Below, piece after piece: positions 6,955 through 30,601 of a DNA stretch of 32,223 bases; the stretch's first letter is position 1; each line of letters begins with the position of its first letter. The stretch lies in contig JAGBBQ010000077.1 in the NCBI GenBank assembly GCA_017938425.1, positions 1 to 32,223 on the forward strand. Direction: 5' to 3'. This DNA is from Clostridia bacterium (GTDB lineage: Bacteria > Bacillota > Clostridia > Oscillospirales > CAG-272). Under the pieces are notes generated by a model. That model saw only the letters and a program-made list of their open reading frames with translations, searched no databases and was not told the DNA's origin. The translations under genes were made by a program, and so were the position numbers.

Positions 6955-7785
6955 ATGAAATTATCGATCGATCTTGAATATCACGTGCATTCCTTCGAGC
7001 TTCCCTTCTTAAAAAGGCTGAAGGCGCTTGGCTACGACGGCGTGGACTTTTGCTTCCACCCCGCGCTCTTTGCCGACGGAAAGGAAGAATGGAGAATCGC
7101 CGAAATCCGCGACAACCTTGAAAAAGCCGGGCTCGTTTGCTCACAGGTGCATCTCCCCTTTTACGATCTTCTCCCCAGTACCTATAGCGATGAATTTACG
7201 GAGAGGCAAATACGCTTTGCTCTGAAAGCAATGCCCATCCTCGGTGCAAAATGGGGCGCGTGGCACGCCGTTTGCGCCCCCGAATGCGATCACGATCGCA
7301 GAGTGGCTCTGGCAGCAAGCCAAAAAATGCTCCGCCGCCATCTCGAAACCGCCGAAAAATACGGCTCGGGAATCGCCGTGGAAAACACCTTCGCGCCCTG
7401 CTTCCCTTGGTACGTAGAGGATCATATCGAGTTGATCGAAAGCATGAATTCTCCTCTCGTCGGTGCGTGCTGGGATTTCGGCCACGCCAATCTCCAGGAA
7501 AGCGAACGCGGCAGGGTGGAGGATTTCAAAATGATCGTAGACAAGATCAAGGTCCTACACGTGGACGATAACCACGCCTGCGAGGACCGCCACCTCGCCC
7601 CCGGCTTCGGCAACGTGCAGTTCAACGAGCTTTTGCCCATCCTCTTCGCCGCGGGCTTTGACGGCTATTTCAATATGGAATGTAACATTCCTCTGCGCAA
7701 CCCCGCAATCACGGATCTGTACTGCAAGGCAATGGTGGATTGCGCGAAGATCCTGATTGAGGAATCGGGCGGCACCGTTGGTTAA
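6955..7785 (+). CDS. Sugar phosphate isomerase/epimerase (xylose isomerase-like TIM barrel), copy 1 of 3
   Basis: A 276-residue AP-endonuclease-2/xylose isomerase-like barrel. Visible metal-site elements are AVEN (Glu, about residue 141), CWDFGH (Asp and His, about 173-178), LHVDDNH (His, about 200) and NMECN (Glu, about 242). The family isomerises or epimerises free or phosphorylated sugars in the cytoplasm. A GGAGG lies 5 bases before the ATG, and the gene starts 13 bases after the hydrolase stop, so the two are cotranscribed. Compared with copies 2 and 3 it differs most in the middle (CFPWYVEDH instead of FFSSVVEDH; WHAVCAPECDHD instead of WHPVSAxECGHD), which may reflect a different substrate. 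Confidence 0.9.
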   Translation: MKLSIDLEYHVHSFELPFLKRLKALGYDGVDFCFHPALFADGKEEWRIAEIRDNLEKAGLVCSQVHLPFYDLLPSTYSDEFTERQIRFALKAMPILGAKWGAWHAVCAPECDHDRRVALAASQKMLRRHLETAEKYGSGIAVENTFAPCFPWYVEDHIELIESMNSPLVGACWDFGHANLQESERGRVEDFKMIVDKIKVLHVDDNHACEDRHLAPGFGNVQFNELLPILFAAGFDGYFNMECNIPLRNPAITDLYCKAMVDCAKILIEESGGTVG

Positions 7786-7812
7786 AAATACGATAAAGCA
7801 CAGGTGAAAAAA

Positions 7813-8646
7813 ATGAAACTTTCAATTGATCTTGAATATCACGTGCATTCCTTCGAGCTCCCCTTCTTACGGCGGCTGAAGGAGCTTGGCTACGACGGCG
7901 TGGACTTTTGCTTTCATCCGCTGGTTTTCGTCGGCGGTAAGGAAGAAAAAATCATAGCACAGATCAAGGAAAACCTTGATAAGGCGGGCCTCGTCTGCTC
8001 GCAGGTGCATCTTCCCTTCTACGATCTGACGCTGCCGAGCAGCTGTCACGATGAATGGGTGGAGCACCAGATGCAGGGCGCCCTCAAAGCTATGACCGTG
8101 CTTGACTGCAAATGGGGTGCCTGGCATCCCGTGAGCGCCACCGAATGCGGCCACGACCGCAAGGTGGCAATGAAGGCAAATCAAGAGATGTTAAAAAGAC
8201 ATCTTGAAACGGCCGAAAAATACGGCGTTGGCATTGCCGTGGAAAACATTTTCGCCCCCTTCTTCTCCTCCGTAGTGGAGGACCATATCGAGCTGATCGA
8301 GAGCATGAATTCTCCGCTCGTTGCCGCCTGCTGGGACTTCGGGCACGCGAATCTCCAGGTCAGCGAGCGCGGCAGAGCGGAGGACTTCCGTATGATCGCC
8401 GACAAGGTGAAGATCCTGCACGTGGACGATAACCACGCCTGCGAGGACCGCCACCTCGCCCCCGGCTTCGGCAACGTGCAGTTCAACGAGCTGCTTCCCA
8501 TCCTCTTCGCCGCGGGCTTTGACGGCTATTTCAATATGGAATGCAACATCCCGTTGCGAAACCCCGAGATCACGGATCTGTACTGCGAGGCAATGGTGAA
8601 ATGCGCGAAGATCCTGATCGAGGAATCGGGCGGCAGAGTCGGATGA
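7813..8646 (+). CDS. Sugar phosphate isomerase/epimerase, copy 2 of 3 (mosaic paralogue)
   Basis: A 277-residue paralogue with the same metal-site motifs (AVEN, CWDFGH, HVDDNH, NMECN). The ATG at 7813 is chosen because AGGTG lies 6 bases before it; a GTG at 7804 is part of that ribosome site. Its two ends resemble copy 1 nearly base for base (for example an identical 74-base run, 7558-7631 against 8419-8492). Its centre, about residues 75-160, resembles copy 3 (identical 38-base run, 8272-8309 against 9125-9162). It lies 27 bases after copy 1. Function as for copy 1; retention of all key residues argues that it is active. Confidence 0.9.
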   Translation: MKLSIDLEYHVHSFELPFLRRLKELGYDGVDFCFHPLVFVGGKEEKIIAQIKENLDKAGLVCSQVHLPFYDLTLPSSCHDEWVEHQMQGALKAMTVLDCKWGAWHPVSATECGHDRKVAMKANQEMLKRHLETAEKYGVGIAVENIFAPFFSSVVEDHIELIESMNSPLVAACWDFGHANLQVSERGRAEDFRMIADKVKILHVDDNHACEDRHLAPGFGNVQFNELLPILFAAGFDGYFNMECNIPLRNPEITDLYCEAMVKCAKILIEESGGRVG

Positions 8647-8665
8647 TCCCGACGAGGAGAAAACT

Positions 8666-9496
8666 ATGAAGCTATCCACCTTTCTCGAATATTCGGTGCA
8701 TTCCTTTGAGGTCGATCACCTCAAAAGGCTGAAGGCGATCGGCTACGAGGGCATCGACTTTTGCTTTCATCCCTCCCTCTTTAAGGACGGCAAGGAGGAG
8801 AGCATCATCGCAAGGATCAGAGAAAACCTCGACGAGGCAGGGCTTGTCTGCGCGCAGGTGCATCTTCCCTTCTACGATCTTTCGCTCCCCAGCACCTGTC
8901 ACGATGACTTTGTGGAGTCGCAGATGCGCGGTGCCTTCAAGGCAATGACGGTGCTGGGCGCAAAATGGGGTGCTTGGCATCCCGTGAGTGCACCCGAATG
9001 CGGCCACGACCGAGGGGTCGCGATGGCAGCCAACAAAAAAATGCTCGCACGCCACCTCGGCTACGCCGAGAAATACGGCATTGGCATCGCCGTGGAAAAT
9101 ATCTTCGCACCCTTCTTCTCCTCTGTAGTGGAGGACCATATCGAGCTGATCGAGAGCATGAAGTCTCCCCTCGTCGGCGCATGCTGGGACTTCGGGCACG
9201 CAAATCTGCAGGAGAGCGAGAGAGGGCACGTCGAGGACTTTAGAATGATCGTGGACAAAATTAAAATCCTGCATGTGAACGATAACCACGCCCGCGAGGA
9301 CCGCCACCTCGCCCCCGGCTTCGGCACGGCGAAATTCGACGCGCTTCTGCCTATCCTTTTCGGCTCGGGCTTTGACGGCTTTTTCAATATGGAATGCTCC
9401 GTTCCCCGCCGCCGCCCCGACATTATGCTCTATTACTACGAGCTGATGGCAAGATCCGCCCGCATCCTTATCGATGAGGCAAAAGCAAAGATTTAA
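8666..9496 (+). CDS. Sugar phosphate isomerase/epimerase, copy 3 of 3
   Basis: A 276-residue member of the same barrel family, the most diverged of the three. The metal-site motifs remain (AVEN, CWDFGH, LHVNDNH, NMEC). HVNDNHAREDRH replaces the HVDDNHACEDRH of the other two, and NMECSVPRRRPDI replaces NMECNIPLRNP, so the substrate pocket near the last two strands differs. A GAGGAG lies just before the ATG, 19 bases after copy 2. It ends the operon, with a terminator 26 bases downstream. Three diverged but intact copies suggest related sugars or successive epimerisation steps. Confidence 0.9.
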   Translation: MKLSTFLEYSVHSFEVDHLKRLKAIGYEGIDFCFHPSLFKDGKEESIIARIRENLDEAGLVCAQVHLPFYDLSLPSTCHDDFVESQMRGAFKAMTVLGAKWGAWHPVSAPECGHDRGVAMAANKKMLARHLGYAEKYGIGIAVENIFAPFFSSVVEDHIELIESMKSPLVGACWDFGHANLQESERGHVEDFRMIVDKIKILHVNDNHAREDRHLAPGFGTAKFDALLPILFGSGFDGFFNMECSVPRRRPDIMLYYYELMARSARILIDEAKAKI

Positions 9497-19657: not shown

Positions 19658-20568
19658 ACCTTATATACCTCCATAGCCTTTGTTTTGTCAACATTTATTT
19701 GCTTTATAAGCTCTTCTCCCGAAGAAAACTCTCTCTCGTCGCGCAAGCGCGAGAGAAATCCGATCTCAATACTCTTGCCGTAAAGATCGCCCGAGAAGCC
19801 GCACAGATGCGTCTCCGCGTGCAGCTCCCTTGCGCCGAAGGTCGGGCAGGTGCCGACGTTGGTCACCGACGGGAAATCCCCCATCTCCGTATGCACCGCG
19901 GTGGCGTAAACGCCCGAGGGCAGGCAGAGGCGGTTCTCCTCGAGCGGGATATTCACCGTCGGGAAGCCGAGCGTACGGCCGCGGCGGTCTCCGCTCTCCA
20001 CCCTGCCCGCGAGCGCGTAGGGCGCGCCGAGCAGAGCGCAAGCGCGCTCCACCTCTCCCTTTTCGAGGTGGGTACGCACGGCACGCGAGGAATACAGCTC
20101 CTCGTCAAGATACAGGGGCGGCAGCGTCAGGCTCTCGCGCCCAAGCTCCCGCATATAACGGCCGAGCATCTCGGCATCGCCCGACGCGCCGTGCCCGAAG
20201 CGGAAATTGAAGCCGCAGGCAGATACGGCGGCACGCAGCTCCCGTGCGAGGCATTGCTTCACAAAATCCTCCGCCGAGATATGCGCGACCGCAGAAAAAT
20301 CACACACGTAAGCATAATCCACACCGAGGGAGGCGAGCAGGGCAAGCTTCTTCTCCGTGCCGTAAAGGCGCTTCGCGCTTCGCTTCATATCGGCATCCTC
20401 GGCGGGAAAGGTGAATACGGAAAGAGGAAGGCCGAGCGCATCCGCCCTTTCTCTTGCGGCAAAAATGAGCGCGCGATGCCCAAGATGCACGCCGTCAAAA
20501 AAACCGAGCGCGACCACCGACGCGCACGGCGCGACCGCTCTGCCGGGAATATAATCGATCCGTTCCAC
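19633..20568 (-). CDS. ribF: Bifunctional riboflavin kinase/FAD synthetase RibF
   Basis: A 311-residue protein from the GTG start. The FAD synthetase domain has the GFFDGVHLGHR nucleotidyl-transferase motif near the N-terminus. The C-terminal riboflavin kinase domain shows GRVESGDRRGRTLGFPTVNI and the YATAV...SVTNVGTCPTF strand pair. It makes FMN and then FAD in the cytoplasm. The GTG at 20568 is preferred because AAGGAGGT ends 6 bases before it. The in-frame ATG at 20574 touches that site, and a TTG at 20586 lies upstream of it. No FMN riboswitch is visible in the short leader. It heads the ribF-prmA-rsmE operon. Confidence 0.94.
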   Translation of the reverse strand: MERIDYIPGRAVAPCASVVALGFFDGVHLGHRALIFAARERADALGLPLSVFTFPAEDADMKRSAKRLYGTEKKLALLASLGVDYAYVCDFSAVAHISAEDFVKQCLARELRAAVSACGFNFRFGHGASGDAEMLGRYMRELGRESLTLPPLYLDEELYSSRAVRTHLEKGEVERACALLGAPYALAGRVESGDRRGRTLGFPTVNIPLEENRLCLPSGVYATAVHTEMGDFPSVTNVGTCPTFGARELHAETHLCGFSGDLYGKSIEIGFLSRLRDEREFSSGEELIKQINVDKTKAMEVYKVWQEAGRS

Positions 20569-20574
20569 AGCCAT

Positions 20575-20582
20575 ACCTCCTT
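20575..20582 (-). promoter_or_regulatory. Shine-Dalgarno site that decides the ribF start
   Basis: AAGGAGGT on the - strand, a full match to the anti-Shine-Dalgarno. It is directly adjacent to ATG 20574 and 6 bases from GTG 20568, so the GTG is the likelier start. Confidence 0.65.
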
Positions 20583-20599
20583 CCAAAGACTTGCCATTT

Positions 20600-20628
20600 A
20601 TTTTAACATATTATAATAAAAATGTCAA
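20600..20628 (-). promoter_or_regulatory. Promoter of the ribF-prmA-rsmE operon
   Basis: TTGACA (20623-20628), 17-base spacer, TAAAAT (20600-20605) on the - strand. Confidence 0.8.
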
Positions 20629-20720
20629 TGCCGTGCGACACGGTTTGACAAAATGAAAGCAAAAGCCCCCGATTCGGCTCGGATACGGCAGAGGCGCGCC
20701 CCGCTTAAATTTAAAAATAT

Positions 20721-20749
20721 TTGACAAAACGGCGCGCGTATGCTACAAT
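20721..20749 (+). promoter_or_regulatory. Promoter of the MFS transporter operon
   Basis: TTGACA (20721-20726), 17-base spacer, TACAAT (20744-20749). It overlaps an upstream in-frame ATG at 20740 and so excludes that start. Confidence 0.82.
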
Positions 20750-20781
20750 GGTATGTAATGAAAAGATTGGAGCTTTTTTCT

Positions 20782-22113
20782 ATGACCGGAAAACTCAACG
20801 TAAAACGGACCATACTCGTAGGCTTTGCCTTCTTCCTCATCTCCGCCTTCTGGCAGTCCTACGACAAGATCGTTCCCCTGATCCTCACGCAGCGCTTCGG
20901 TATGAAGCAGACGGTCTCGGGTATCATTATGTCGCTCGATAACGTATTCGCCGTCTTTATGCTCCCCATCTTCGGCGCGCTCTCGGACAAGGTCTCGACG
21001 AAATTCGGCAGGCGCACGCCGTTTATCCTTCTCGGCACGGTGGTTGCCGTCGTATTCTATATTTTCCTGAGCCTTGCGCCCTCGCTGTGGATGTTTATCC
21101 TGCTTCTGCTCGCCACGCTGATCGCGATGGCGACCTTCCGCTCCCCCGCCGTGGCTCTGATGCCCGACGTGACCGAGAAGCCCCTTCGCTCGAAGGGCAA
21201 CGCCGTGATCAACCTGATGGGCACGGCGGGCGGTATCTCGGTGCTTGCCGTCGGTCTTTTCATCAAGACGGGCGAGGCACACGCACAGAACTACCCCATC
21301 TACGTGGCAACCGTCTGCATCATTATGATCGCAGCACTGACCGTATTCCTTCTCACCGTAAAGGAGGTGCCGTGGGCACAGGAGGCCGAGGCACGCAACC
21401 GCGCGCTCGAGGCAAGCACCGCCGCAAAGGACGAGGCACCTGCCACAGAGAAGCACAGGCTCTCGAAGCCCGAGCTTATCTCGCTCTGCCTGATCCTTGC
21501 CTCGGTGGCTCTCTGGTTCACGGGCTACAACGCCGTGACCTCGAAGTTCTCGGTCTACGTAGAGGCCGTTCTTCCTCCCCGCGATCCGGTCACCGGTGCG
21601 ATCCTCGGCGACCCCGTGGTCTCTTACGACCTCGCGCTGATCATCGCGCAGATCGCCGCCATTATCGCTTATATCCCCGTCGGTATGATCGCCTCCCGCG
21701 TCGGCCGTAAGAAGAGCATTCTCGCCGGCATCGTGATGCTGAGCTGTGCCTTTGGCTTCGCGGGTCTGATCAACGCCAATACCCCGCCCATTCCCATGTA
21801 CATCCTCTTTGCGCTGGCTGGCATCGGCTGGGCGACCATCAACGTCAACTCCTTCCCCATGGTCGTTGAGCTCGCCACGGGCAGCGACGTCGGCAAATAC
21901 ACCGGCTATTACTACACCGCATCGATGTCGGCACAGATCATCACGCCCATCCTCTCGGGCTTCCTTGTTGACAAACTCGGCTGGGGCGTATTCTTCCCCT
22001 ACGCTGCGATCTTCGCCGCGCTCTCCTTCGTCACAATGTTCTTCGTCAAGCACGGTGACGCGAAGCCCGAGCAGAAGGGCTCGCTCCTTGAGCATCTGGA
22101 TACGGACGACTAA
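20782..22113 (+). CDS. MFS transporter (sugar or glycoside type, GPH/SUC-like)
   Basis: A 443-residue protein with 12 likely membrane segments. The loop between helices 2 and 3 reads GALSDKVSTKFGRRTPFILLG, the D-x-x-x-x-x-G-R-R-x-P element of the MFS, here with the GRRTPFIL form found in sucrose and glycoside-type carriers. The matching loop in the second half is GMIASRVGRKKSILAG. A long cytoplasmic loop (about residues 205-240, rich in Ala and Glu) joins the halves. The ATG at 20782 has GGAG 9 bases upstream. A phosphodiesterase gene follows after 48 bases, so the two may be cotranscribed; the substrate is not shown. Confidence 0.88.
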   Translation: MTGKLNVKRTILVGFAFFLISAFWQSYDKIVPLILTQRFGMKQTVSGIIMSLDNVFAVFMLPIFGALSDKVSTKFGRRTPFILLGTVVAVVFYIFLSLAPSLWMFILLLLATLIAMATFRSPAVALMPDVTEKPLRSKGNAVINLMGTAGGISVLAVGLFIKTGEAHAQNYPIYVATVCIIMIAALTVFLLTVKEVPWAQEAEARNRALEASTAAKDEAPATEKHRLSKPELISLCLILASVALWFTGYNAVTSKFSVYVEAVLPPRDPVTGAILGDPVVSYDLALIIAQIAAIIAYIPVGMIASRVGRKKSILAGIVMLSCAFGFAGLINANTPPIPMYILFALAGIGWATINVNSFPMVVELATGSDVGKYTGYYYTASMSAQIITPILSGFLVDKLGWGVFFPYAAIFAALSFVTMFFVKHGDAKPEQKGSLLEHLDTDD

Positions 22114-22161: not shown

Positions 22162-22998
22162 ATGTTTTGGTATACACTGATCGCAGTTTTCGTTTTCGTC
22201 ATTCTCGCATTGCTCATCGCATATGCGTATCTCACCTTCCCCGGCAAGCGCCGTCCGATCTCGCCCGAGCTGCTCGGCACGAAGTTTGCCCACCGCGGCC
22301 TGCACGATGCGGCGCACGCGGAGAACTCGCTTTCCGCCTTCCGCCTCGCCGTGGAGAACGGCTTCGGCATTGAGCTGGACGTCCGTCTTTCCAAGGACGG
22401 CACGCTGGTGGTCTTTCACGACGATACCCTCGAGCGCGTTTGCGGCGTGGAGGGCAACGTGATCGACTACACCGCCGAGGAGCTTGCCGCTATGCGCCTT
22501 TCGGGCACGGAGGAGGGCATCCCCACCTTCCGCGAGGTGCTGGATCTCGTGGACGGACGCGTACCGCTGCTCGTGGAGATCAAGGAGGCGGCAGCGGACA
22601 GCGCCGTCAGCCTTGCCACCGCCGAAATGCTGCGGACCTACGGCGGCCCCCTGCTCGTCGAGTCCTTCAATCCGCTCTCGCTCGGCCGCATCAAGGAGCA
22701 GCTTCCCGCCGTGGCGCGCGGTCTTCTCTGCGACCACTATACGAAAAAGCCCGAGATGAGAAAGCCGACCTATCACATCCTGCAATGGTTCCTTCTGAAC
22801 TTCAAGGCGAAGCCCGACTTCTACGCCTACAATTTTGAGAGCCGCCGCTTCCTTCCCTTCCGTCTCGTCCGAAAGCTGCACAAGCGCCCCACCCTTGCGT
22901 GGACGGTACGCACCCAGCTTGACAACGCGATCAGCCGCGAGAGCGGCTTCACCTCGATCATCTTCGAGGACTTTATTCCGAAGGAAGAGAACGTATGA
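22162..22998 (+). CDS. Glycerophosphodiester phosphodiesterase, membrane-anchored
   Basis: A 278-residue GDPD protein. An N-terminal helix (about residues 3-25) anchors it in the membrane. The catalytic barrel shows the HRG motif (AHRGLHD), the metal Glu and Asp in ELDVRLSKDG, and the second His in VVFHDD. It hydrolyses glycerophosphodiesters from lipid turnover to glycerol-3-phosphate and an alcohol. CGGAG precedes the ATG. Its stop overlaps the start of the methyltransferase gene as ATGA, indicating translational coupling. Confidence 0.93.
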   Translation: MFWYTLIAVFVFVILALLIAYAYLTFPGKRRPISPELLGTKFAHRGLHDAAHAENSLSAFRLAVENGFGIELDVRLSKDGTLVVFHDDTLERVCGVEGNVIDYTAEELAAMRLSGTEEGIPTFREVLDLVDGRVPLLVEIKEAAADSAVSLATAEMLRTYGGPLLVESFNPLSLGRIKEQLPAVARGLLCDHYTKKPEMRKPTYHILQWFLLNFKAKPDFYAYNFESRRFLPFRLVRKLHKRPTLAWTVRTQLDNAISRESGFTSIIFEDFIPKEENV

Positions 22999-24140
22999 AG
23001 CTGCAGCTCGTTGCCACCTGCCTTTTCGGCCTCGAGCATATGCTCGGCGAGGAGATCGACGCGCTCGGATACGAGCGTATCTCTACCATCGACGGCCGCG
23101 TTACCTTCCTCGCAGACGAGGAGGGACTTGCTCTTTCCAACGTATTCTTGCGCTTTGCCGAGCGCGTTTATATCAAGCTCGGCTCCTTCGAGGTGCATAG
23201 CTTCGACGATCTCTTTGAGGGCACGAAGGCACTCTCTTGGTCAACCTTTATTGGCAAAAACGATGCTTTCCCCGTCAAGGGGCACTCGATCAAGTCCTGT
23301 CTGACCTCGATCCCCGACTGTCAGGCCATCGTCAAGAAGGCGGTGGTGGACTCGCTCTCCGCCGTCTACGGCATTACGCGCTTTCCCGAGGAGGGCGCAA
23401 AGCACCAGATCGAATTTTTCATCCTCAACAACGAAGCAACGCTGATGATCGACACCTCGGGCACGCCGCTGCACAAGCGCGGCTACCGCTACGAATCCAA
23501 CGATGCGCCCATCCGCGAAACGCTTGCCGCCGCGATCGCCAAAACCGCGCGCCCGCGCGAGGACGTGCTCTTCTGGGATCCGATGTGCGGCAGCGGCACG
23601 ATTGCCATCGAGGCCGCGATGATCATGAACAATATCGCCCCCGGCAAGCGTCGCCGTTTCGCCGCCGAGCAATTCCCCTGGCTTGATAAAAGATTCTTTG
23701 CCGACGCGAGAGAGGAAGCGATCTCAGGTGAGATCCGCTCCCCCTTCGAGGTCTACGCCTCGGATATCGACGAGCGCGCCGTCGCGCTCACCATACAGAA
23801 CGCAAAGCTTGCCGGTGTCAATCACGCCATCCGCGTGATGCGCGAGGATTGCCGCCGTATCGGCGCGCCCGGCCGCCGCGGCACGATCGTCACCAATCCG
23901 CCCTACGGCGAGCGTCTCGGCACGCGCGAGGAGGTCGAGCGCCTCTACCGCGATATGGGAAGGCATTTCCGTTCTCTCGCGCCCTGGCAGGTCTACGTGA
24001 TCACCTCGCACGAGGGCTTCGAGCGCTTCTACGGCAAAAAGGCCGATAAGGTGCGCAAGCTCTACAACGGTATGATCCCCTGCTATCTGTATCAGTATTT
24101 CAAGAACGATAAGGCACCGTTTGATAAGAAAAAATCATAA
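22995..24140 (+). CDS. THUMP-domain class I SAM RNA methyltransferase (RlmL/YpsC-like, 23S rRNA guanine-N2)
   Basis: A 381-residue protein. Residues about 1-160 form the N-terminal ferredoxin-like/THUMP RNA-binding region (LVATCLFGLEHMLGEEIDALG...). The catalytic domain has DPMCGSGTIAIEAAMI (motif I) and TNPPYGERLG (motif IV, N-P-P-Y), the signature of N2-guanine methyltransferases acting on 23S rRNA. The start overlaps the preceding gene by four bases. It ends LYQYFKNDKAPFDKKKS, and a diverged copy of this end (LYRFFKNDKAFDSKKK) lies 2.6 kb downstream after the GH51 gene. Confidence 0.93.
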   Translation: MKLQLVATCLFGLEHMLGEEIDALGYERISTIDGRVTFLADEEGLALSNVFLRFAERVYIKLGSFEVHSFDDLFEGTKALSWSTFIGKNDAFPVKGHSIKSCLTSIPDCQAIVKKAVVDSLSAVYGITRFPEEGAKHQIEFFILNNEATLMIDTSGTPLHKRGYRYESNDAPIRETLAAAIAKTARPREDVLFWDPMCGSGTIAIEAAMIMNNIAPGKRRRFAAEQFPWLDKRFFADAREEAISGEIRSPFEVYASDIDERAVALTIQNAKLAGVNHAIRVMREDCRRIGAPGRRGTIVTNPPYGERLGTREEVERLYRDMGRHFRSLAPWQVYVITSHEGFERFYGKKADKVRKLYNGMIPCYLYQYFKNDKAPFDKKKS

Positions 24141-24193
24141 AAAAGCCTGCATCCAACCCCGTCCTAAGGAGTGCGCGGATGCAGGCATTTTTT
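24139..24193. terminator. Terminator between the methyltransferase and the convergent AraC gene
   Basis: Perfect 10-base stem GCCTGCATCC (24145-24154) / GGATGCAGGC (24177-24186) with an A-run before and a run of six T after it, so it can work in both directions. Confidence 0.88.
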
Positions 24194-24261
24194 ATATCAT
24201 CGGTAAACTATCGGATTTTTTATGCGACCTCAGACGCCTTTTTCTTCGGCATTCACAGGCT

Positions 24262-25092
24262 TCATATGGAAAACGGCGGGCGGCTTTTCGATTGCTCGAT
24301 CTCGCGCCCGGATATGCAAAACCGACCTCTGAACTGCGAGGGTGTCATATCCGTTTCCTTTTTGAAGGTGCGCATAAAATGCTCTTCGCTATCATATCCG
24401 CAAGCGCGAGAAACGGCGGTCACGGTCATATCGGTGGCAGATAAAAGATATTTGGCATGCTCCATACGGTAGCCGCGGATATCCAAAACGAGGCTCACGC
24501 CAAAAAACCGCTTATACAAATGCTGAACGTACGAGCGACTCAAATTTAATTTTCGGCTGATCTCGTCCACCGTCCATCGGCCTTGCGGCGCAAGCCGAAG
24601 CTCTCCGCGCAGGCGGTTGAAGGACTCGTAGAGCGGATGCTCACGCGCAGCGCCCGGGCAACGGATCATCTCGCCGATCTTGATCAGGAGCAATTCAAAA
24701 TACCGTTTCACCGTTTCTGTTTTATAGAGATTTTGCGAATAAAGCTCGAAGAACATATTTTTGATAAAGCTCAAAAGCTCAGTTACATCGCCCAGCGGCA
24801 GCACCGTATCCAACCGGATTCCAAGCGCCGAAAGAAATCGCTGTCCTTCTTCATCCATATCAAAATGCACCCAATCGTTCACGTATTCACCGTCCAAGGC
24901 GCCGTAGATCTGCGGCGTTCCTTTTTTATAGATAATCACGCTGTTTGGCGGCACACTGATTCTTTCGCCCTGCAAGCAAGCAAAAGCATCGGTTTTGATG
25001 ATCAGGAGAATACAATCGCCCGAGCCGTTCGGCCGGTTGATAGAAAAGCCCGCGGGGTGGCGGTAGTTATATCCCACGTTTGTTATTTTCAT
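24262..25092 (-). CDS. AraC-family transcriptional regulator, probable activator of GH51
   Basis: A 276-residue protein with an N-terminal AraC-ligand-binding (cupin-like) part (about residues 10-90) and a C-terminal pair of helix-turn-helix units: WTVDEISRKLNLSRSYVQHLYKRFFG and MTVTAVSRACGYDSEEHFMRTFKKETDMTPSQF. The N-terminal domain differs from that of the regulator at 12026. The ATG at 25092 has GGAGG 4 bases upstream. It diverges from the arabinofuranosidase gene with overlapping promoters, so it very likely controls that gene in response to arabinose or an arabino-oligomer. Confidence 0.9.
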   Translation of the reverse strand: MKITNVGYNYRHPAGFSINRPNGSGDCILLIIKTDAFACLQGERISVPPNSVIIYKKGTPQIYGALDGEYVNDWVHFDMDEEGQRFLSALGIRLDTVLPLGDVTELLSFIKNMFFELYSQNLYKTETVKRYFELLLIKIGEMIRCPGAAREHPLYESFNRLRGELRLAPQGRWTVDEISRKLNLSRSYVQHLYKRFFGVSLVLDIRGYRMEHAKYLLSATDMTVTAVSRACGYDSEEHFMRTFKKETDMTPSQFRGRFCISGREIEQSKSRPPFSI

Positions 25093-25129
25093 AGGCCCTC
25101 CACAAAGCACAAAACATCAGTATATTTAC

Positions 25130-25158
25130 ATTATAATCCATTGTGTCCTCTCTGTCAA
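25130..25158 (-). promoter_or_regulatory. Consensus promoter of the AraC-type gene at 24262-25092
   Basis: TTGACA (25153-25158), 17-base spacer, TATAAT (25130-25135), a perfect match on the - strand. Confidence 0.85.
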
Positions 25159-25169
25159 GGATGTATAAT
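25141..25169 (+). promoter_or_regulatory. Promoter of the GH51 gene, overlapping the divergent AraC promoter
   Basis: TTGTGT (25141-25146), 17-base spacer, TATAAT (25164-25169). Its -35 lies inside the spacer of the - strand promoter, so polymerase cannot occupy both at once. Confidence 0.75.
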
Positions 25170-25201
25170 AAACACAAAGCCTCACGAAAGGAGAGTTTTG
25201 T

Positions 25202-26689
25202 ATGAAAGCCAGCATCACGGCTAACAAGAAGTTTATTATTGGAGAGATCGACAGGCGGATTTACGGATCTTTTATTGAGCACCTCGGACGCGCCGTGTAC
25301 GGCGGTATATATGAGCCTTCACACCCTAACGCAGATGCAGACGGATTCCGCACAGACGTGATCGAGCTTGTGAAGAAGCTAAATGTTCCCATCGTTCGCT
25401 ATCCCGGCGGAAATTTCGTTTCGGGCTACCATTGGGAGGACGGCACGGGCGATCGCCAAAAAAGGCCGAAGCGCATGGAGCTTGCATGGTCTGCCGTTGA
25501 AACGAACGAGGTTGGGATCGACGAATTTCAGGCATGGGCGAAAAAGGCCGATACCGAGATTATGATGGCGGTGAATCTTGGTACGCGCGGCATTGGAGAT
25601 GCGCTAAACTGCCTCGAATACTGCAACGGAACGGCCGATACACACTATGCGAATATGCGCCGAAAAAACGGCTTTGAAGAGCCCTTCGGCATCAAGGTCT
25701 GGTGCCTTGGAAACGAGATGGATGCCGATTGGCAGATCGGGCACAAAACGGCGGAGGAATACGGCCGCCTCGCGGCAGAAACCGCAAGAGCGATGAAAAA
25801 GCTGGATCCCTCCATCAAGCTGGTGGCCTGCGGAAGCTCGGGGCGTTGGATGAAGTCCTTCGGTGAATGGGAGCTGACCGTATTGGATCACGCCTACGAC
25901 GCCATCGATTACGTGTCGCTGCACACCTATTACGATAATTTTGGGGACGATACACCGCTCTTTTTAAGCCGCTGTGAGGAAATGGATGCATTTATAAAGG
26001 AAACAGCGGCTTTATGCGATGCCGCCAAGGTGAAGAAAAAATCACAAAAAACGGTCGATCTTTCCTTTGATGAATGGAACGTGTGGTATCATAGCAGGAT
26101 GCAGGACAAAAAGATCGAAAAATGGACGGTTGCGCCCGCGCAGCTGGAGGATATCTACACCTTTGAGGATGCCCTCGTCGTCGGTTGCATGCTGATCACC
26201 CTGCAAAACAACTGCGACCGCGTGAAAATGGCGTGCCTTGCGCAGCTCGTCAACGTGATCGCTCCGATCATGACCGAAAACGGAGGTAAGGCCTGGGCAC
26301 AGACCATCTTCTACCCCTTTATGTACGCCTCTGCCTACGGCAACGGCAGCACCCTGCGTACGGTCATTGAAAGCGAAAGCTATTGCGTAAACAATCGCAC
26401 CGTTCCCTATCTTGCATCCAGCGTTATCTATAACACCGCAGAAAATGAGATCGTTGTGTACGCCATCAACCGATCGCTCGACGAAGATATGGAGCTTTCG
26501 GTGGCGCTGGAGAATTTTGAGGGCTTTTGCCTTACCGAGCATATCGAGCTCTACTCGGATGATCTGAAGGCGGAGAACAGTGGGGATGAAGAGCGCGTTT
26601 CTCCGCGCCGCGTTAACGTGGCAAGCGGCGAAGCGATCACTCTCAAAAAGCATTCTTGGAATATGCTGAAATTCAAGCCACTCGCGTAA
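25202..26689 (+). CDS. abfA: Alpha-L-arabinofuranosidase, GH51, intracellular
   Basis: A 495-residue protein of the usual length for intracellular GH51. The N-terminus shows IYGSFIEHLGRAVYGGIYEP, typical of the family. The catalytic acid/base is Glu 172 in LGNEMD and the nucleophile is Glu 291 in SFDEWNVW. A C-terminal beta-sandwich follows from about residue 385. No signal peptide is present, so it removes arabinose from imported arabino-oligosaccharides. AAAGGAG lies 8 bases before the ATG. It has no terminator of its own before a remnant of the rRNA methyltransferase tail, whose following hairpin probably ends the transcript. Confidence 0.96.
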   Translation: MKASITANKKFIIGEIDRRIYGSFIEHLGRAVYGGIYEPSHPNADADGFRTDVIELVKKLNVPIVRYPGGNFVSGYHWEDGTGDRQKRPKRMELAWSAVETNEVGIDEFQAWAKKADTEIMMAVNLGTRGIGDALNCLEYCNGTADTHYANMRRKNGFEEPFGIKVWCLGNEMDADWQIGHKTAEEYGRLAAETARAMKKLDPSIKLVACGSSGRWMKSFGEWELTVLDHAYDAIDYVSLHTYYDNFGDDTPLFLSRCEEMDAFIKETAALCDAAKVKKKSQKTVDLSFDEWNVWYHSRMQDKKIEKWTVAPAQLEDIYTFEDALVVGCMLITLQNNCDRVKMACLAQLVNVIAPIMTENGGKAWAQTIFYPFMYASAYGNGSTLRTVIESESYCVNNRTVPYLASSVIYNTAENEIVVYAINRSLDEDMELSVALENFEGFCLTEHIELYSDDLKAENSGDEERVSPRRVNVASGEAITLKKHSWNMLKFKPLA

Positions 26690-26691
26690 GT

Positions 26692-26754
26692 CTGTGCGCA
26701 GACCTGTATCGGTTCTTTAAGAACGATAAGGCCTTTGATAGCAAAAAGAAATAA
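26692..26754 (+). pseudogene. Remnant of the 3' end of an rRNA methyltransferase gene (second copy of the tail at 24087-24140)
   Basis: In one frame these bases read LCADLYRFFKNDKAFDSKKK-stop. The intact methyltransferase ends LYQYFKNDKAPFDKKKS-stop. From the CTG codon at 26704 about 41 of 51 bases match, with an exact 14-base run AAGAACGATAAGGC, one missing codon, and mismatches both synonymous and not. There is no start codon or further open homologous frame: the preceding codons are interrupted by the GH51 stop two bases upstream. It lies in the same orientation as the intact gene and keeps a terminator directly behind it, as an original gene end would. Confidence 0.8.
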
Positions 26755-26788
26755 AGAAAAAAGCCCGAAAACGGGCTTTTTTCTTTAT
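26751..26788. terminator. Bidirectional terminator after GH51/remnant and after hepT
   Basis: A 17-base perfect stem (ATAAAGAAAAAAGCCCG and its complement) around AAAA. It begins at the stop codon of the methyltransferase remnant and overlaps the stop codon of the convergent hepT gene. Confidence 0.92.
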
Positions 26789-27123
26789 CCTTCAACTATA
26801 TTCAGCTTCTTATATATCTCGGGAATGCTTTTTGTAACCGTTTCATATACGATCGTGAGATCCACCTCGCCGTAGTCATGAACGATGCGGTTGCGCATAC
26901 CCTTGATCGCCTGCCACGGAATGTCCTTATGTGCATCCTTAAAGCCTTGCGTGAGCTTTACGGAATTTTCCGAAATCTGAATTAAGCGAAAAAGCGCCGA
27001 GTCGCAAAGCAGCTCGTTTTCCGCCAGCTGCTCATACGATACGCCCCGCGTTTTCTCCATCACGAAGCGGATATCCTTTAACATCTTTTGCACGTAATAC
27101 GCATCGTCCTTTACGTTATCCAT
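26785..27123 (-). CDS. hepT: HepT-like toxin (HEPN-domain RNase) of a type VII toxin-antitoxin pair
   Basis: A 112-residue all-alpha DUF86/HEPN protein. The R-x4-H-x-Y motif is seen as RNRIVHDY (Arg 77, His 82, Tyr 84); Arg and His form the RNase site and the Tyr is the residue that the MntA antitoxin adenylylates in studied systems. The gene overlaps the nucleotidyltransferase gene by 8 bases and follows it, so the pair is translationally coupled with the antitoxin first. The known HepT cleaves the 3' end of tRNAs. All key residues are present, so it is probably active. Its stop codon lies within a bidirectional terminator hairpin. Confidence 0.88.
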   Translation of the reverse strand: MDNVKDDAYYVQKMLKDIRFVMEKTRGVSYEQLAENELLCDSALFRLIQISENSVKLTQGFKDAHKDIPWQAIKGMRNRIVHDYGEVDLTIVYETVTKSIPEIYKKLNIVEG

Positions 27124-27586
27124 AGATCTTTATACCGTCCTTTAAAATTTCGCTTGTAAGTGCAAGGTTGTTTTCCAGCTGCTTCTGATCCAGCACGTCA
27201 ACCCTTTTCTTCAGCTTCTCGCGAAGCGATTCCACCAAGCCAAAAAAATCGATTCCAAACAACGAAGTGTGTACCAACAGATCCACGTCACTTTTTTCGG
27301 TTGCTTTTCCCTTTGCGTAAGATCCGAAAAGATAGCAGAATTCAACGGGATAGGTCTCAAAAACGCTGATGCAAGCCTCCCGGATCTGCTCCAAGGTTAG
27401 AATGCCGTTTTCCTCGTCCACGCGGCCGAAGGAGCGCAGCGCATCCATCAGATATTTGTATTTCATGCTTCCCTGCTTTTTCGGATCGTTTTCGTATTCA
27501 ACGTACGTTCTTAGCGGCATTCCCACAAAATTCGCCGCCGCCTTTTGCGTGATCCCTGTGTTTTTTCTCAATTCGCGAAGCGTCAT
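27116..27586 (-). CDS. mntA: MntA-like nucleotidyltransferase antitoxin with N-terminal XRE-type HTH
   Basis: A 156-residue protein. Residues about 1-55 look like an XRE-type helix-turn-helix (MTLRELRKNTGITQKAAANF, then PLRTYVEYEN). Residues about 65-150 form a minimal nucleotidyltransferase with the G-S-x10-D-x-D motif (Gly 88, Ser 89, Asp 100, Asp 102). MntA neutralises HepT by adding AMP units to its active-site tyrosine. The HTH is extra to the minimal MntA and probably gives autoregulation. The ATG at 27586 has a strong GGAGG-type site; the frame runs on upstream into AT-rich DNA. An extended -10 promoter and repeated TGCAA motifs lie upstream. Confidence 0.87.
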   Translation of the reverse strand: MTLRELRKNTGITQKAAANFVGMPLRTYVEYENDPKKQGSMKYKYLMDALRSFGRVDEENGILTLEQIREACISVFETYPVEFCYLFGSYAKGKATEKSDVDLLVHTSLFGIDFFGLVESLREKLKKRVDVLDQKQLENNLALTSEILKDGIKIYG

Positions 27587-27616
27587 ATCCTCCCCTCCTC
27601 TTTGCCCTTTTTTTAT

Positions 27617-27645
27617 ATTATACCACGCTTTTTTGAAATATGCAA
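27617..27645 (-). promoter_or_regulatory. Promoter of the mntA-hepT operon (extended -10)
   Basis: On the - strand TTGCAT (27640-27645) is followed after 17 bases by TATAAT (27617-27622), preceded by TG one base away (extended -10). The -35 itself lies within one of the repeated TGCAA motifs, so binding there would block transcription. Confidence 0.78.
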
Positions 27646-27724
27646 TAGATTTATGCAATTTCTGCATTTTTTGTTTTCTTGAAATATGCAAAAATTGCAC
27701 TTTTATATCTTGAAAAATATGCAG
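27633..27724. repeat. Iterated TGCAA/TTGCA motifs upstream of mntA, probable operator array
   Basis: TTGAAATATGCAA occurs exactly at 27633-27645 and 27679-27691, and a near copy (TTGAAAAATATGCA) at about 27710-27723. Further ATGCAA (27653-27658) and TGCAT (about 27663-27667) units lie between them. TGCAA and TTGCA also form an inverted repeat at 27687-27699. The array covers and precedes the promoter of the HTH-MntA gene. Confidence 0.6.
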
Positions 27725-27799
27725 AATTTCCTTATTTTGGAATTTATCAAACGCCTCTTTTTTTCTTTCGCAAGCACCAACCGAATGAAAATATTGAAT

Positions 27800-27885
27800 G
27801 GCGTTAATAACGCCGGAGCCACGATATAACGAAATTTCGCGATAGCGGATTTATATCGACGCGTAGTGCCTTTCGGGCACTATGC
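27800..27885. repeat. Cluster of three dyads, possible palindromic repeat element
   Basis: Three inverted repeats follow each other: GGCGTTA/TAACGCC (27800-27814), CGATATAA/TTATATCG (27822-27858) enclosing the palindrome CGAAATTTCG, and a 10-pair hairpin at 27861-27885 with loop TTTCG that overlaps the stop codon of the phosphodiesterase gene. None has a T-run. The rest of 27587-27880 holds the mntA promoter and no gene. Confidence 0.5.
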
Positions 27886-28803
27886 AAGTTCCGAGGTATG
27901 CGCCTCTCTTGATATGCGCGGTGCAGCCCCCGTCAGATGCGAGATGTCCTTATAGGCAGGCAGAGCGGAATCGTCAAAGATCCCCTCAGGCACCTGTGAG
28001 GTCCATCCCCGCTCGTCAAAGGCGGGCGCCTCGATGCCAAGCGCATACAAAACGATCGCCGCAAGATCGCGCACGTTCATTTCCCCGATCTCGGTGTGCC
28101 GTACGCCTCTGCCGACAGCGGCAAAGGTCGTATATTTTTCCTCGTCGCTCCAGCCGCCGTGCACACCGCCTTGGCCGCCGCCGGGATTCGTCCCGCCGTG
28201 ATCCGAGATCACCATAAAGAGCGTATCCGAAAGGATGCCCGCATCCTCCGCCGCCGCATATATATCACCGATCATAGCATCCTGCTTATGAATATACGCA
28301 AGGTGCGGCGCAGAGCCGTATCCGTTCTGATGGCCGTGAAAATCCGCGCTATCCAGCTGAACGAAGAGGAAGGTGGGCTTCTTTTCCTTGATATAATCGC
28401 AGATCACAGGCGTCAGATCGTAGTCCTGCAAATGCTCGGGATTCGAGCAAACGCCAAGCCCGCGCTCCACGATACCGAGTGTGATGGGATCCCATTCGGT
28501 AAAGGAGCCAAGCTCGGCCTCGGGCATCACCGCGCGGATGCGGCGGAACAGAGTGCCAAAGGGCGCGTCCGTCGGATACGGCCCCTTCGTCACGGTTGCG
28601 TTGGAAAGCCCATGCACCTCCGGGCCAACGCCGAGCAGCATCGAGCCCCAGCACTCCGCGCTCGCGGATGGATTCGAGGCAAGAGCGCGGTAGGTCACGG
28701 CACCGCCTTCAAAAATACGGTCAAAATTCGGTGTATCGGCATTTCTGATAAAAGAACCTGCCCCATCTATCCCCACAACGATCACGTGTTCATACCTTTT
28801 CAT
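27880..28803 (-). CDS. Alkaline phosphatase superfamily protein (type I phosphodiesterase/nucleotide pyrophosphatase-like)
   Basis: A 307-residue protein. It starts with the metal-binding strand VIVVGIDGAG (Asp about residue 13). NPSASAECWGSML holds the position of the nucleophile (a Ser or Thr a few residues before the Trp). DSADFHGHQNGYG and ISDHGG carry the remaining Asp/His metal ligands. The family hydrolyses phosphodiesters, phosphonates or sulfates. No signal peptide is visible, so it is probably cytoplasmic. The ATG at 28803 has GGGAGG 8 bases upstream and a consensus promoter further up. The substrate is unknown; placement beside GH20 allows a role with modified sugars, but that is only a guess. 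Confidence 0.85.
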   Translation of the reverse strand: MKRYEHVIVVGIDGAGSFIRNADTPNFDRIFEGGAVTYRALASNPSASAECWGSMLLGVGPEVHGLSNATVTKGPYPTDAPFGTLFRRIRAVMPEAELGSFTEWDPITLGIVERGLGVCSNPEHLQDYDLTPVICDYIKEKKPTFLFVQLDSADFHGHQNGYGSAPHLAYIHKQDAMIGDIYAAAEDAGILSDTLFMVISDHGGTNPGGGQGGVHGGWSDEEKYTTFAAVGRGVRHTEIGEMNVRDLAAIVLYALGIEAPAFDERGWTSQVPEGIFDDSALPAYKDISHLTGAAPRISREAHTSELA

Positions 28804-28831
28804 AGCACTTTCCTCCCGAAGTTTATATCTT

Positions 28832-28860
28832 ATTATAAGAAAAAAACTCCACACTGTCAA
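28832..28860 (-). promoter_or_regulatory. Consensus promoter of the phosphodiesterase gene
   Basis: TTGACA (28855-28860), 17-base spacer, TATAAT (28832-28837) on the - strand. Confidence 0.87.
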
Positions 28861-28970
28861 TGCGAAAAATCTACTAAAATCTTAACAAAACTTAGATTGC
28901 CGCTTTATATCCTAACGGCAAGCGGCCTTATTCTTTGGAAAAGGGGTAAGGCGAAAATGGTCACAAATTA
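28861..28970. other. Intergenic interval with two mutually exclusive inverted repeats
   Basis: GCCGCTT/AAGCGGC (28899-28926) and GCCTTA/TAAGGC (28925-28952) share bases, so only one can form at a time. No gene or start codon with a ribosome site is convincing here. It lies upstream of the phosphodiesterase promoter and beyond the GH20 terminator. Confidence 0.35.
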
Positions 28971-29012
28971 AAAACAAGTGAAGGCAAATTTTACAGTGCC
29001 TTCACTTGTTTT
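28971..29012 (-). terminator. Terminator of the GH20 gene
   Basis: Perfect 15-base stem AAAACAAGTGAAGGC / GCCTTCACTTGTTTT with a 12-base loop, followed on the - strand by TTAATTT after the stem's own TTTT. Confidence 0.88.
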
Positions 29013-29042
29013 CTATTCTCCTGCATATGACAGCTTTTCCTT

Positions 29043-30500
29043 TTATCTGTCCTGTATCAGCCGTGCCGCCAAATTGTGGATCACGCGGAACTGCCCTTCA
29101 AAATCCGCAAAGCTGCGCGTGCACTTCACGCCCCAAACGCGCTCCGAAAGCACGGGCAGATGCGCCATGATCATACCGATCTCCTGCTCAAAGGTCATCT
29201 CCCAGGCGCAAAGCATCGCGCCGATCACCTGCTCGGTGGGCTCGATCGTGATGGGATTGAGCGTTGCCACGGATTTCGGCCACCAATGCTGCCAATTGTA
29301 GACGTTCCATTCGTAAATATCCTTCGCATTCCAATTCACGTCCCCGGCGGGCATGCAAAGACTCGGCACGATATACAGCGGCTTCCAGGATGCGTTGATC
29401 AGGCGGAAGCCCTCGGCAAGAAGCTGGTGCGTTGTCTGATAGTGGTTTTCCCAGGAGATAACGATGGTTTCGGGCGGGATCTTCTCACTTCCCTTCTCGG
29501 GAAAGCCCTCCCAAACGATGGGCGTTTTGCCGAGCGAAAGCACGTACGAAGCAATGCGGCCCACGTAGTCGCTATAAAGCCCCAAAACGTCCTCGATTCC
29601 GTTTGCCTGCATATAGGCACGGCAGTCCTCACACTGATTCCAAAGCCAAATGCTTGCCTCGTCACCACCGATATGGATATAAGGTGCTTCGGGGAAAAGC
29701 TCTGCGATCTCACGCAGGAGCGTTTTTACGCCATTCACGGCACGGTCGCTTCCCGCGCAAAGCAATGCCTTGTTATCGATCACGTCACCGCTCTCATTGT
29801 AGAAAACGCCGCCCTCGGCTTTGCTACGGTCACCGAACACCTCGGGGTAATATGTATTGAGCACGGGCGCATGCCCCGGGCATTCAAACTCGGGCACAAG
29901 AATCACACCGCGCGCGGCGGCGTATGCACGCAGGGTGCAAAGCTGCTCCTCGGTATAATAGCACCCCTCCACGCAAAGCTTCGGGAACGCCTTCGAGGGC
30001 AATGTATAGAGTTTGTTGTCCGCAAAATGAAGGTTCAGATAGCGGATCTTATAGTAAAAGCAGAGATCGACGAATTTCAAAAGCTTGTCGAAGGGATGCC
30101 ACTCGCGCCCGATATCCACCATAATGGAGCGATAATCCTTGTCGGGATAGTCCTCCACCGTCAAGCGCGGCAAAAGCAGACTCTCCGCCGTTGCGCTGCT
30201 GATCTGCAAAACCGACGCAAGACCGTAGCAAAGTCCCTCTACATCACTCGCGTAAAGATAGATCGGCCCCTCCTCGGAGCAAAGGCGGTACGCATTTTTT
30301 GCCATCGCGGCATCATAGATCAGCTCAATGCCGCCCTTCTTTCCAACGGAAAGCGCGTATTTATGCCCCTTTTTGAAGCTATCGCAGAAGGCCGCCACCT
30401 GCGCGCTCCATTCCTCGCGCTCGTTATAGATCGCAAGCGCGGCGGTATGCGGCGCATACTCGGTCACCTGAAAGGATTTGGGATGCGGAATAATATTCAT
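29043..30500 (-). CDS. Beta-N-acetylhexosaminidase, GH20
   Basis: A 485-residue protein. Residues about 1-115 form the GH20b-type N-terminal domain, ending in the DYPDKDYRSIMVDIGREWHP stretch that opens the catalytic barrel. The catalytic Asp-Glu pair is D280-E281 in HIGGDEASIW; HFADN and EFECPGH are further family motifs. GH20 enzymes release terminal GlcNAc or GalNAc by substrate-assisted catalysis. There is no signal peptide, so it acts on imported mucin- or chitin-type oligosaccharides. The ATG at 30500 has AAAGGAG 7 bases upstream; the frame extends further upstream across the promoter without support. It has its own promoter and terminator. Confidence 0.93.
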   Translation of the reverse strand: MNIIPHPKSFQVTEYAPHTAALAIYNEREEWSAQVAAFCDSFKKGHKYALSVGKKGGIELIYDAAMAKNAYRLCSEEGPIYLYASDVEGLCYGLASVLQISSATAESLLLPRLTVEDYPDKDYRSIMVDIGREWHPFDKLLKFVDLCFYYKIRYLNLHFADNKLYTLPSKAFPKLCVEGCYYTEEQLCTLRAYAAARGVILVPEFECPGHAPVLNTYYPEVFGDRSKAEGGVFYNESGDVIDNKALLCAGSDRAVNGVKTLLREIAELFPEAPYIHIGGDEASIWLWNQCEDCRAYMQANGIEDVLGLYSDYVGRIASYVLSLGKTPIVWEGFPEKGSEKIPPETIVISWENHYQTTHQLLAEGFRLINASWKPLYIVPSLCMPAGDVNWNAKDIYEWNVYNWQHWWPKSVATLNPITIEPTEQVIGAMLCAWEMTFEQEIGMIMAHLPVLSERVWGVKCTRSFADFEGQFRVIHNLAARLIQDR

Positions 30501-30533
30501 AGCAATTCTCCTTTTGGCGTAAGCTTTTTTCAT

Positions 30534-30562
30534 AGTATAACATATCCCTTTTAAAAAAACAA
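30534..30562 (-). promoter_or_regulatory. Promoter of the GH20 gene
   Basis: TTGTTT (30557-30562), 17-base spacer, TATACT (30534-30539) on the - strand. Confidence 0.7.
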
Positions 30563-30601
30563 CCCATTTCGTGAAAAAACAATGCGCGAAAACGGTGCCC
30601 T

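Follow-up and report, generated by a model that had tools for sequence, protein, structure and literature searches.

How does a pair of carbohydrate-use genes come to lie between two copies of the end of a housekeeping gene? We asked this of a contig of 32,223 nucleotides (JAGBBQ010000077.1, hereafter the window) from an uncultured gut Clostridia bacterium (GCA_017938425.1; G000 below, other G numbers being the genus and family genomes compared with it). Here an RlmL-type 23S rRNA methyltransferase gene is followed by genes for an AraC-family regulator and a glycoside hydrolase of family 51 (GH51), which are followed in turn by a second copy of the methyltransferase tail. Comparison with a relative in which the pair is missing provides good support for an event in which DNA was inserted at a 14-base sequence near the end of the gene, brought in a replacement tail and terminator, and displaced the old tail. 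The machinery is left open by the same evidence, which does not separate integration of a circle from displacement by linear DNA.

The methyltransferase gene and its second tail

The locus reads as follows:
22995-24140, plus strand: RlmL-type 23S rRNA methyltransferase gene, intact, its last codons apparently swapped (...KNDKAPFDKKKS)
24102-24115, plus strand: left copy of the 14-base core AAGAACGATAAGGC, the putative crossover zone
24116-24140, plus strand: replacement 3′ end of the gene, homologous to the original tail and diverged from it
24139-24192, plus strand: terminator-like inverted repeat beside the replacement tail (16-nucleotide arms, 94%)
24262-25110, minus strand: AraC-family regulator (Pfam/NCBIfam family match)
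25202-26689, plus strand: GH51 arabinosylfuranosidase (NCBIfam ArfA, 722 bits, cut-off 625)
26704-26754, plus strand: displaced tail copy (LYRFFKNDKAFDSKKK-stop), with its core copy at 26719-26732 and 26733-26754 identical to G050
26751-26788, plus strand: original methyltransferase terminator, with a 17-bp perfect stem

The open reading frame (ORF) at 22995-24140 matches UPF0020, THUMP and RlmL_1st in Pfam, and its NCBIfam RlmKL match falls under the cut-off (254 versus 466 bits). The end of this gene (tail 1) and the displaced copy (tail 2) lie in the same orientation, two genes apart. Their first parts, 24087-24115 and 26704-26732, agree at 25 of 29 positions without gaps (86%) and include the exact 14-mer, which begins at both 24102 and 26719. 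The gapped local score between the tails is 46. By comparison, 1000 mononucleotide shuffles of the second region reached 24 at most, and the same strand of the window with the second-tail region masked gave no more than 28. An earlier note on this DNA, made from the letters alone, had described an intact methyltransferase gene ending at 24140, an exact 14-base run common to both tails, and a second tail in the same orientation with a terminator directly behind it, and all of this holds. Its start for the second tail, 26692, lies some twelve bases too far upstream, because an inverted repeat occupying 26690-26703 follows the GH51 stop without a gap; over the 45 bases before tail 2, only 12 ungapped positions agree with G050, and there is no clear homology to the gene.

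An unoccupied site in a relative

An RlmL gene was found in 66 of the 69 genus genomes searched, G000 included, and the closest relatives of the window gene are those of G036 (95% protein identity) and G050 (94%). In G050 the AraC/GH51 pair is missing at this site. The gene there ends LYQYFKNEKAFDSKKK-stop and runs straight into the terminator stem of window positions 26751-26788, with differences at one end base and in the loop. When the window flanks are joined at the 14-mer, they match G050 at 208 of 219 positions, with only one base and four terminator-loop bases differing in the last 119 columns. The two existing junctions give 183 identities in 200 columns and 75 in 84. The relative thus offers an unoccupied site, and the old 3′ end has been kept downstream in the window as an orphan, since 26733-26754 and the terminator match the G050 gene end. 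These results support the proposal of the earlier note that the block entered at the 3′ end of the gene, with its tail replaced and a remnant left beyond.

That note had also predicted a relative without the pair, in which the gene, the terminator and hepT follow one another directly. G050 has the expected gene end and terminator; hepT itself is not present at this site, and what G050 keeps beyond the terminator are collinear stretches matching window 27478-27505 and 27637-27775, positions inside the mntA-like gene of the window and over its upstream end. Most simply, RlmL, the 26751-26788 terminator and hepT/mntA would have followed one another in the ancestor, and G050 would later have lost most of hepT/mntA by deletion. 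In G036 the gene ends KNEKK, and window 26755-27900 is not detectable before gerA (score 27; 20 shuffles gave up to 30).

An artefact of assembly or binning that joined two contigs or strains might produce such a locus, the assembly being 68.6% complete and spread over 132 contigs. However, contigs of G050 and G036 match both flanks in the same order. On the left the match runs from 16904 or 16916 to about 24113; on the right it begins near 30600, at the gerA end (a GerA family match), where both relatives rejoin the window. The contig is thus not an obvious chimera. The two tails are, moreover, different sequences with only 14 exact bases in common. We consider an artefact very improbable.

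Each tail changes its match to G050 at the core

The comparison with G050 also locates the exchange. Before the core, tail 1 matches G050 at 15 of 15 positions and tail 2 at 11 of 15; after the core, tail 2 matches at 22 of 22 and tail 1 departs. For tail 2 the difference between the two sides (4/15 versus 0/22) gives a one-sided Fisher p of 0.02. The last 60 bases of the gene before the 14-mer are identical to G050, its divergent part is shorter than 10 codons, and nothing in the gene body has the look of an imported block. The description in the earlier note of one intact and one diverged copy is therefore too simple, since each tail is G050-like on one side of the core only. The exchange point probably lies in or beside the 14-mer, and the repeats at 24087-24115 and 26704-26732 may have acted as recombination sites. 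A reciprocal switch of this kind is the pattern predicted by a single crossover with a circle.

Beyond the core, tail 1 behaves as a diverged version of the G050 tail, in that its global alignment score was reached by 11 of 2000 shuffles and its local score by 134 of 5000. Because it can still be aligned to the original, the incoming DNA probably brought a related gene ending. Replacement of this end appears tolerable. Across the RlmL C-terminal tails compared at 101 loci, a Y(Q/E)(F/Y)(F/Y)-like motif near the end is conserved (Gln in 98, Glu in three), and the tail after the (F/Y)FK-like motif ranges from no residue past K (G018) to 56 residues (G225); with length varying so widely, the gene end looks tolerant of replacement.

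A different history would have the tail and terminator duplicated in tandem first, with AraC/GH51 entering later between the copies by an unrelated route while the copies drifted. The terminator-like repeats behind both tails and the still alignable post-core parts would fit this. Drift does not, however, predict that tail 1 should be G050-like before the core only and tail 2 after it only. Nor did a search of 98 other RlmL loci reveal a tandem tail without the pair, the finding that the earlier note had named as telling against its proposal. That search extended up to 15 kb downstream as contigs reached (986.5 kb in total), and its best same-strand score for duplication of a locus's own tail was 32, equal to the antisense control maximum and to be set against 46 in the window. 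The genus contributes 58 of these loci, out of 65 other genomes in which the gene was matched, and the other 40 were chosen from the family outside the genus, where 172 of 185 genomes had a match. The set omits G010, G041, G042, G047 and G051 (partial genes, short contigs or not fetched), G053 and G063 (fewer than 500 bases downstream) and second gene copies in G007, G017 and G033. Prior tandem duplication is accordingly unlikely. With no tail duplication above control in these 98 loci, the idea that RlmL 3′ ends are an insertion hotspot across the genus or family is not supported either.

The inserted pair

Between the tails, AraC and GH51 fill 24262-26689, and no recombination, conjugation or mobilization genes lie inside. 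Five other ORFs of 97-213 amino acids overlap the two genes and have no Pfam match. The cargo looks foreign, judging from its distribution and base composition. GH51 matches occur in five of the 69 genus genomes, and besides G000 only G043 has a close one (66%). Close homologues are more frequent across the family, where 52 of 295 genomes have one at E 1e-80 or better; the best of these, at 69-70%, are in other genera. GC content at third codon positions is 0.597 for AraC and 0.643 for GH51. Among the genes upstream, the eight computed (lysS to rlmL) range from 0.695 to 0.810, and gerA has 0.741; however, low values are not special to the insert, because the other right-flank genes (HepT, MntA, phosphodiesterase and GH20) also have 0.52-0.65.

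The divergent AraC-GH51 arrangement recurs in 10 of 17 family regions (AraC identity 42-58%), so the pair appears to be a ready-made regulated module. Judging by its families, it is probably a self-contained, sugar-responsive module for the use of arabinose-containing polysaccharides. RlmL is absent from the fetched stretch in all 17 of these regions.

How the pair may have entered

The comparison supports the following course of events. The ancestral methyltransferase ended KAFDSKKK, and behind its gene stood the terminator and then hepT/mntA. A foreign arabinosylfuranosidase gene with its divergent AraC regulator entered at the core, within the last 13 codons, on DNA that brought a gene 3′ end and terminator of its own. 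The methyltransferase is now completed by these, and the resident tail and terminator have ended up 2.6 kb downstream, behind GH51. As to the mechanism, a circle with an attachment (att) site that mimicked the gene 3′ end may have joined the chromosome by a single reciprocal crossover, the catalyst likely being an integrase supplied in trans or since lost. The block would then act as an integrase-less, att-flanked cis-mobilizable element (CIME), and the methyltransferase would stay intact because its C-terminal tail is variable and tolerant. A single event would thereby account for both junctions. This reading, of one crossover by a circular CIME-like element with the integrase in trans, is the one we favour, with about an even chance of being correct.

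Several observations weigh against it. There is no integrase between the tails, where only AraC, GH51 and the five overlapping ORFs without a Pfam match are found (the earlier note had stated as much, and the Pfam search confirms it). When coordinates were compared by eye across the 66 genus genomes that have RlmL, none of the tyrosine or serine integrases among the matches listed fell within 12 kb of it. On contigs shared with RlmL, the nearest were a serine recombinase in G010, lying 15 kb upstream, and tyrosine integrases in G006 and G016, at a distance of about 53 kb. The collections searched yielded neither a donor nor a free circle nor a second insertion. The pre-core differences of tail 2 are few (4/15) and could be drift or a single template-switch event, given the raised self-complementarity there. 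The Arg of tail 2 LYRFF occurs in none of the 101 RlmL tails, so the start of tail 2 is not clearly a working tail from another species. Finally, the inverted arms at the left junction are not beyond shuffles (277 of 300 as good).

As to an enzyme acting from elsewhere, G000 has a sole PF00589 match, on contig C13, and no PF07508 match. That the C13 tyrosine integrase (20390-21328, minus strand) acted in trans on the AraC/GH51 block is only a possibility. It stands (L164 3561-6329) beside a Rep_trans/MobT-like protein, with MobT below the cut-off, in a set resembling an integrative element, and an ORF resembling single-stranded DNA-binding protein, recognised by eye, lies between the two. We rejected a site-specific integrative and conjugative element (ICE), integrative and mobilizable element (IME) or prophage, as no integrase lies next to the putative att site. 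A transposon or insertion sequence was likewise rejected; no transposase family is present between the tails, the repeat is imperfect, and the tail differs beyond the repeat.

The donor was sought more widely. Against the 69 genus genomes, tail 1 with its terminator matched, outside G000, only RlmL 3′ ends in five genomes and one short, terminator-side stretch in G018; the terminator-like repeat at 24139-24192 found short pieces only in other genomes. The second finding that the earlier note had named against its proposal, a widespread intergenic repeat unrelated to the methyltransferase, likewise did not turn up in the genomes searched. The joined site, searched against 395 family genomes with limited sensitivity (two first-look candidates scored per genome among the matches listed), returned G000 and three short matches of 21-34 bases. 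Exact patterns had no matches in viral_contigs, and three GH51 pattern matches there include no relative. Among the GH51-type matches listed in plasmid and phage records, at most 41% of the block was matched in plasmids and 25% in phages, none reaching 80%; by protein, 347 plasmid records all have less than 60% identity, and of 12 phage records two lie at 60-80%. A literature search on integration sites and genomic islands, in its limited set of records, contained no mention of rlmL.

In the chief rival to the circle, linear donor DNA from a related strain, carrying an RlmL 3′ end, terminator 1, AraC and GH51, would have recombined by homology within the methyltransferase gene on the left and been joined illegitimately on the right, leaving the resident tail orphaned. 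Such displacement requires no integrase, and its architecture would be that of the orphan 3′ ends described behind polymorphic toxin genes (PMC5361080; PMC3150448). The wholly resident post-core part of tail 2 (22/22) agrees with it, and the four pre-core changes may be one template-switch event. On the other hand, a donor of this composition is not in evidence: RlmL is missing from the stretch fetched for each of the 17 family GH51 regions, and the KAPFDKKKS tail with terminator 1 was not found elsewhere among the matches listed from the 69 genus and 395 family genomes. The right junction, moreover, lies upstream of the point at which tail 1 departs, so that resident bases are duplicated where simple displacement would be expected to replace them, and tail 2 differs from the resident sequence just before the core, which linear displacement does not predict. 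We regard it as quite possible, if improbable on balance.

Dyads at the junctions

Two successive dyads follow the GH51 stop within 26690-26728:
26690-26703, plus strand: inverted repeat GTCTG-TGCG-CAGAC, directly behind the GH51 stop
26707-26728, plus strand: dyad TATC(g)GTTCTT-T-AAGAACGATA, to which the core and the altered bases of tail 2 both contribute

By our first measure the inverted arms at the right junction are weak (38 of 300 shuffles as good). By a second, post hoc measure, 20,000 random variants at four bases included 96 that equalled the right dyad, and 104 when a transition bias was applied, but 128 of the 32,194 29-mers of the window score as well. Folded as single-stranded DNA, the right junction reaches -7.6 kcal/mol (5 of 200 shuffles as good) and the left -2.2 kcal/mol (103 of 200). 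The Rfam gathering search of the window gave no hits. The tail 2 dyad might have arisen in resident DNA through a single template-switch mutation; alternatively, it might belong to a genuine attachment site.

The locus could be a minimal mobile metabolic cassette, in which a regulator-enzyme pair circularises and integrates at RlmL 3′ ends through a structured attachment site. Its right end would consist of the GTCTG-TGCG-CAGAC repeat followed by the second dyad, with arms of 10 bp, and its integrase would be supplied in trans. Each host would then receive a fresh gene ending, and sugar-use genes would spread among gut Clostridia without a visible mobile element. This extension is, in our view, unlikely.

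Comparison with known systems

A close parallel to the proposed CIME-like block is found in Streptococcus salivarius, where CIMEs are small (1.2-13 kb) and have no integrase; of 14 elements there that encode carbohydrate enzymes, 10 were CIMEs (PMC7563491). The block here resembles them in its small set of cargo genes, a carbohydrate enzyme included, in its att-like repeats at a gene 3′ end, the left one completing the target gene, and in having no recombination or transfer genes. It is unlike them in that no parent ICE or IME, cognate integrase or tandem partner was found, the target is an RlmL-type gene, and the repeats agree at 25/29 with an exact core of only 14 bases. A second precedent comes from serine-integrase ICEs, which exchange the C terminus of the rRNA methyltransferase RumA (PMC4701971). 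There, however, the methyltransferase gene is a different one, the integrase is carried and the exchange changes the reading frame, whereas the new tail here is in frame and alignable to the old.

The rival reading of linear displacement has its own precedents. Loci for Rhs, contact-dependent inhibition (CDI) and type VI secretion effectors carry orphan 3′ fragments downstream (PMC3150448), and displacement by homology-facilitated illegitimate recombination has been proposed for effector loci (PMC5361080). The likeness lies in a constant 5′ body, a new 3′ end, and the old one behind an inserted module. Those loci concern toxin/immunity pairs, and what we find is AraC and ArfA at an rRNA methyltransferase; the gene is thus a housekeeping one, the cargo is for sugar use, there is one orphan, and the tails are homologous. 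Divergent AraC-GH51 arabinofuranosidase pairs are themselves familiar, the same pair and orientation occurring in the family regions described above, there with no RlmL in the fetched stretch.

The locus provides a near base-level example of a carbohydrate-use pair entering a gut Clostridia chromosome with no integrase in view, and of entry that replaces the end of a housekeeping gene instead of breaking it. If such blocks recur, carbohydrate-use genes could travel via gene 3′ ends and be missed by element finders keyed to integrases. We describe a single case; events of its kind are known, but its target is unusual and no recombinase is visible.

The right flank and minor observations

Behind the original terminator lies an older right flank:
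26785-27123, minus strand: HepT-like gene, below the HepT equivalog cut-off
27116-27700, minus strand: MntA-like nucleotidyltransferase gene, below the MntA equivalog cut-off

Together these resemble a HepT/MntA toxin-antitoxin pair (26785-27700), the MntA-like protein being 194 amino acids long with a weak N-terminal helix-turn-helix (HTH) match below the Pfam cut-off. In PADLOC, the HepT-like protein has no match and the MntA-like protein has candidate-system matches. Only two collinear scraps of this region are left in G050 (L034 7178-7344). The four-base terminator loop (26768-26771 in the window, L034 7157-7160 in G050) is AAAA in one of the two genomes and TTTT in the other, which looks like an inversion between the arms of the hairpin.

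The interval from rlmL to gerA is variable. It holds AraC, GH51, HepT, MntA, a phosphodiesterase and GH20 in the window (24141-30600), a MATE transporter, an HTH protein and a leucine-rich repeat protein in G050 (L034 7144-11857), and an HTH protein like that of G050 (by eye) with a small ORF without a Pfam match in G036 (L035 7126-8481). Elsewhere in the window, 6955-9496 contains three tandem ORFs of 276-280 amino acids, whose very similar translations look paralogous by eye.

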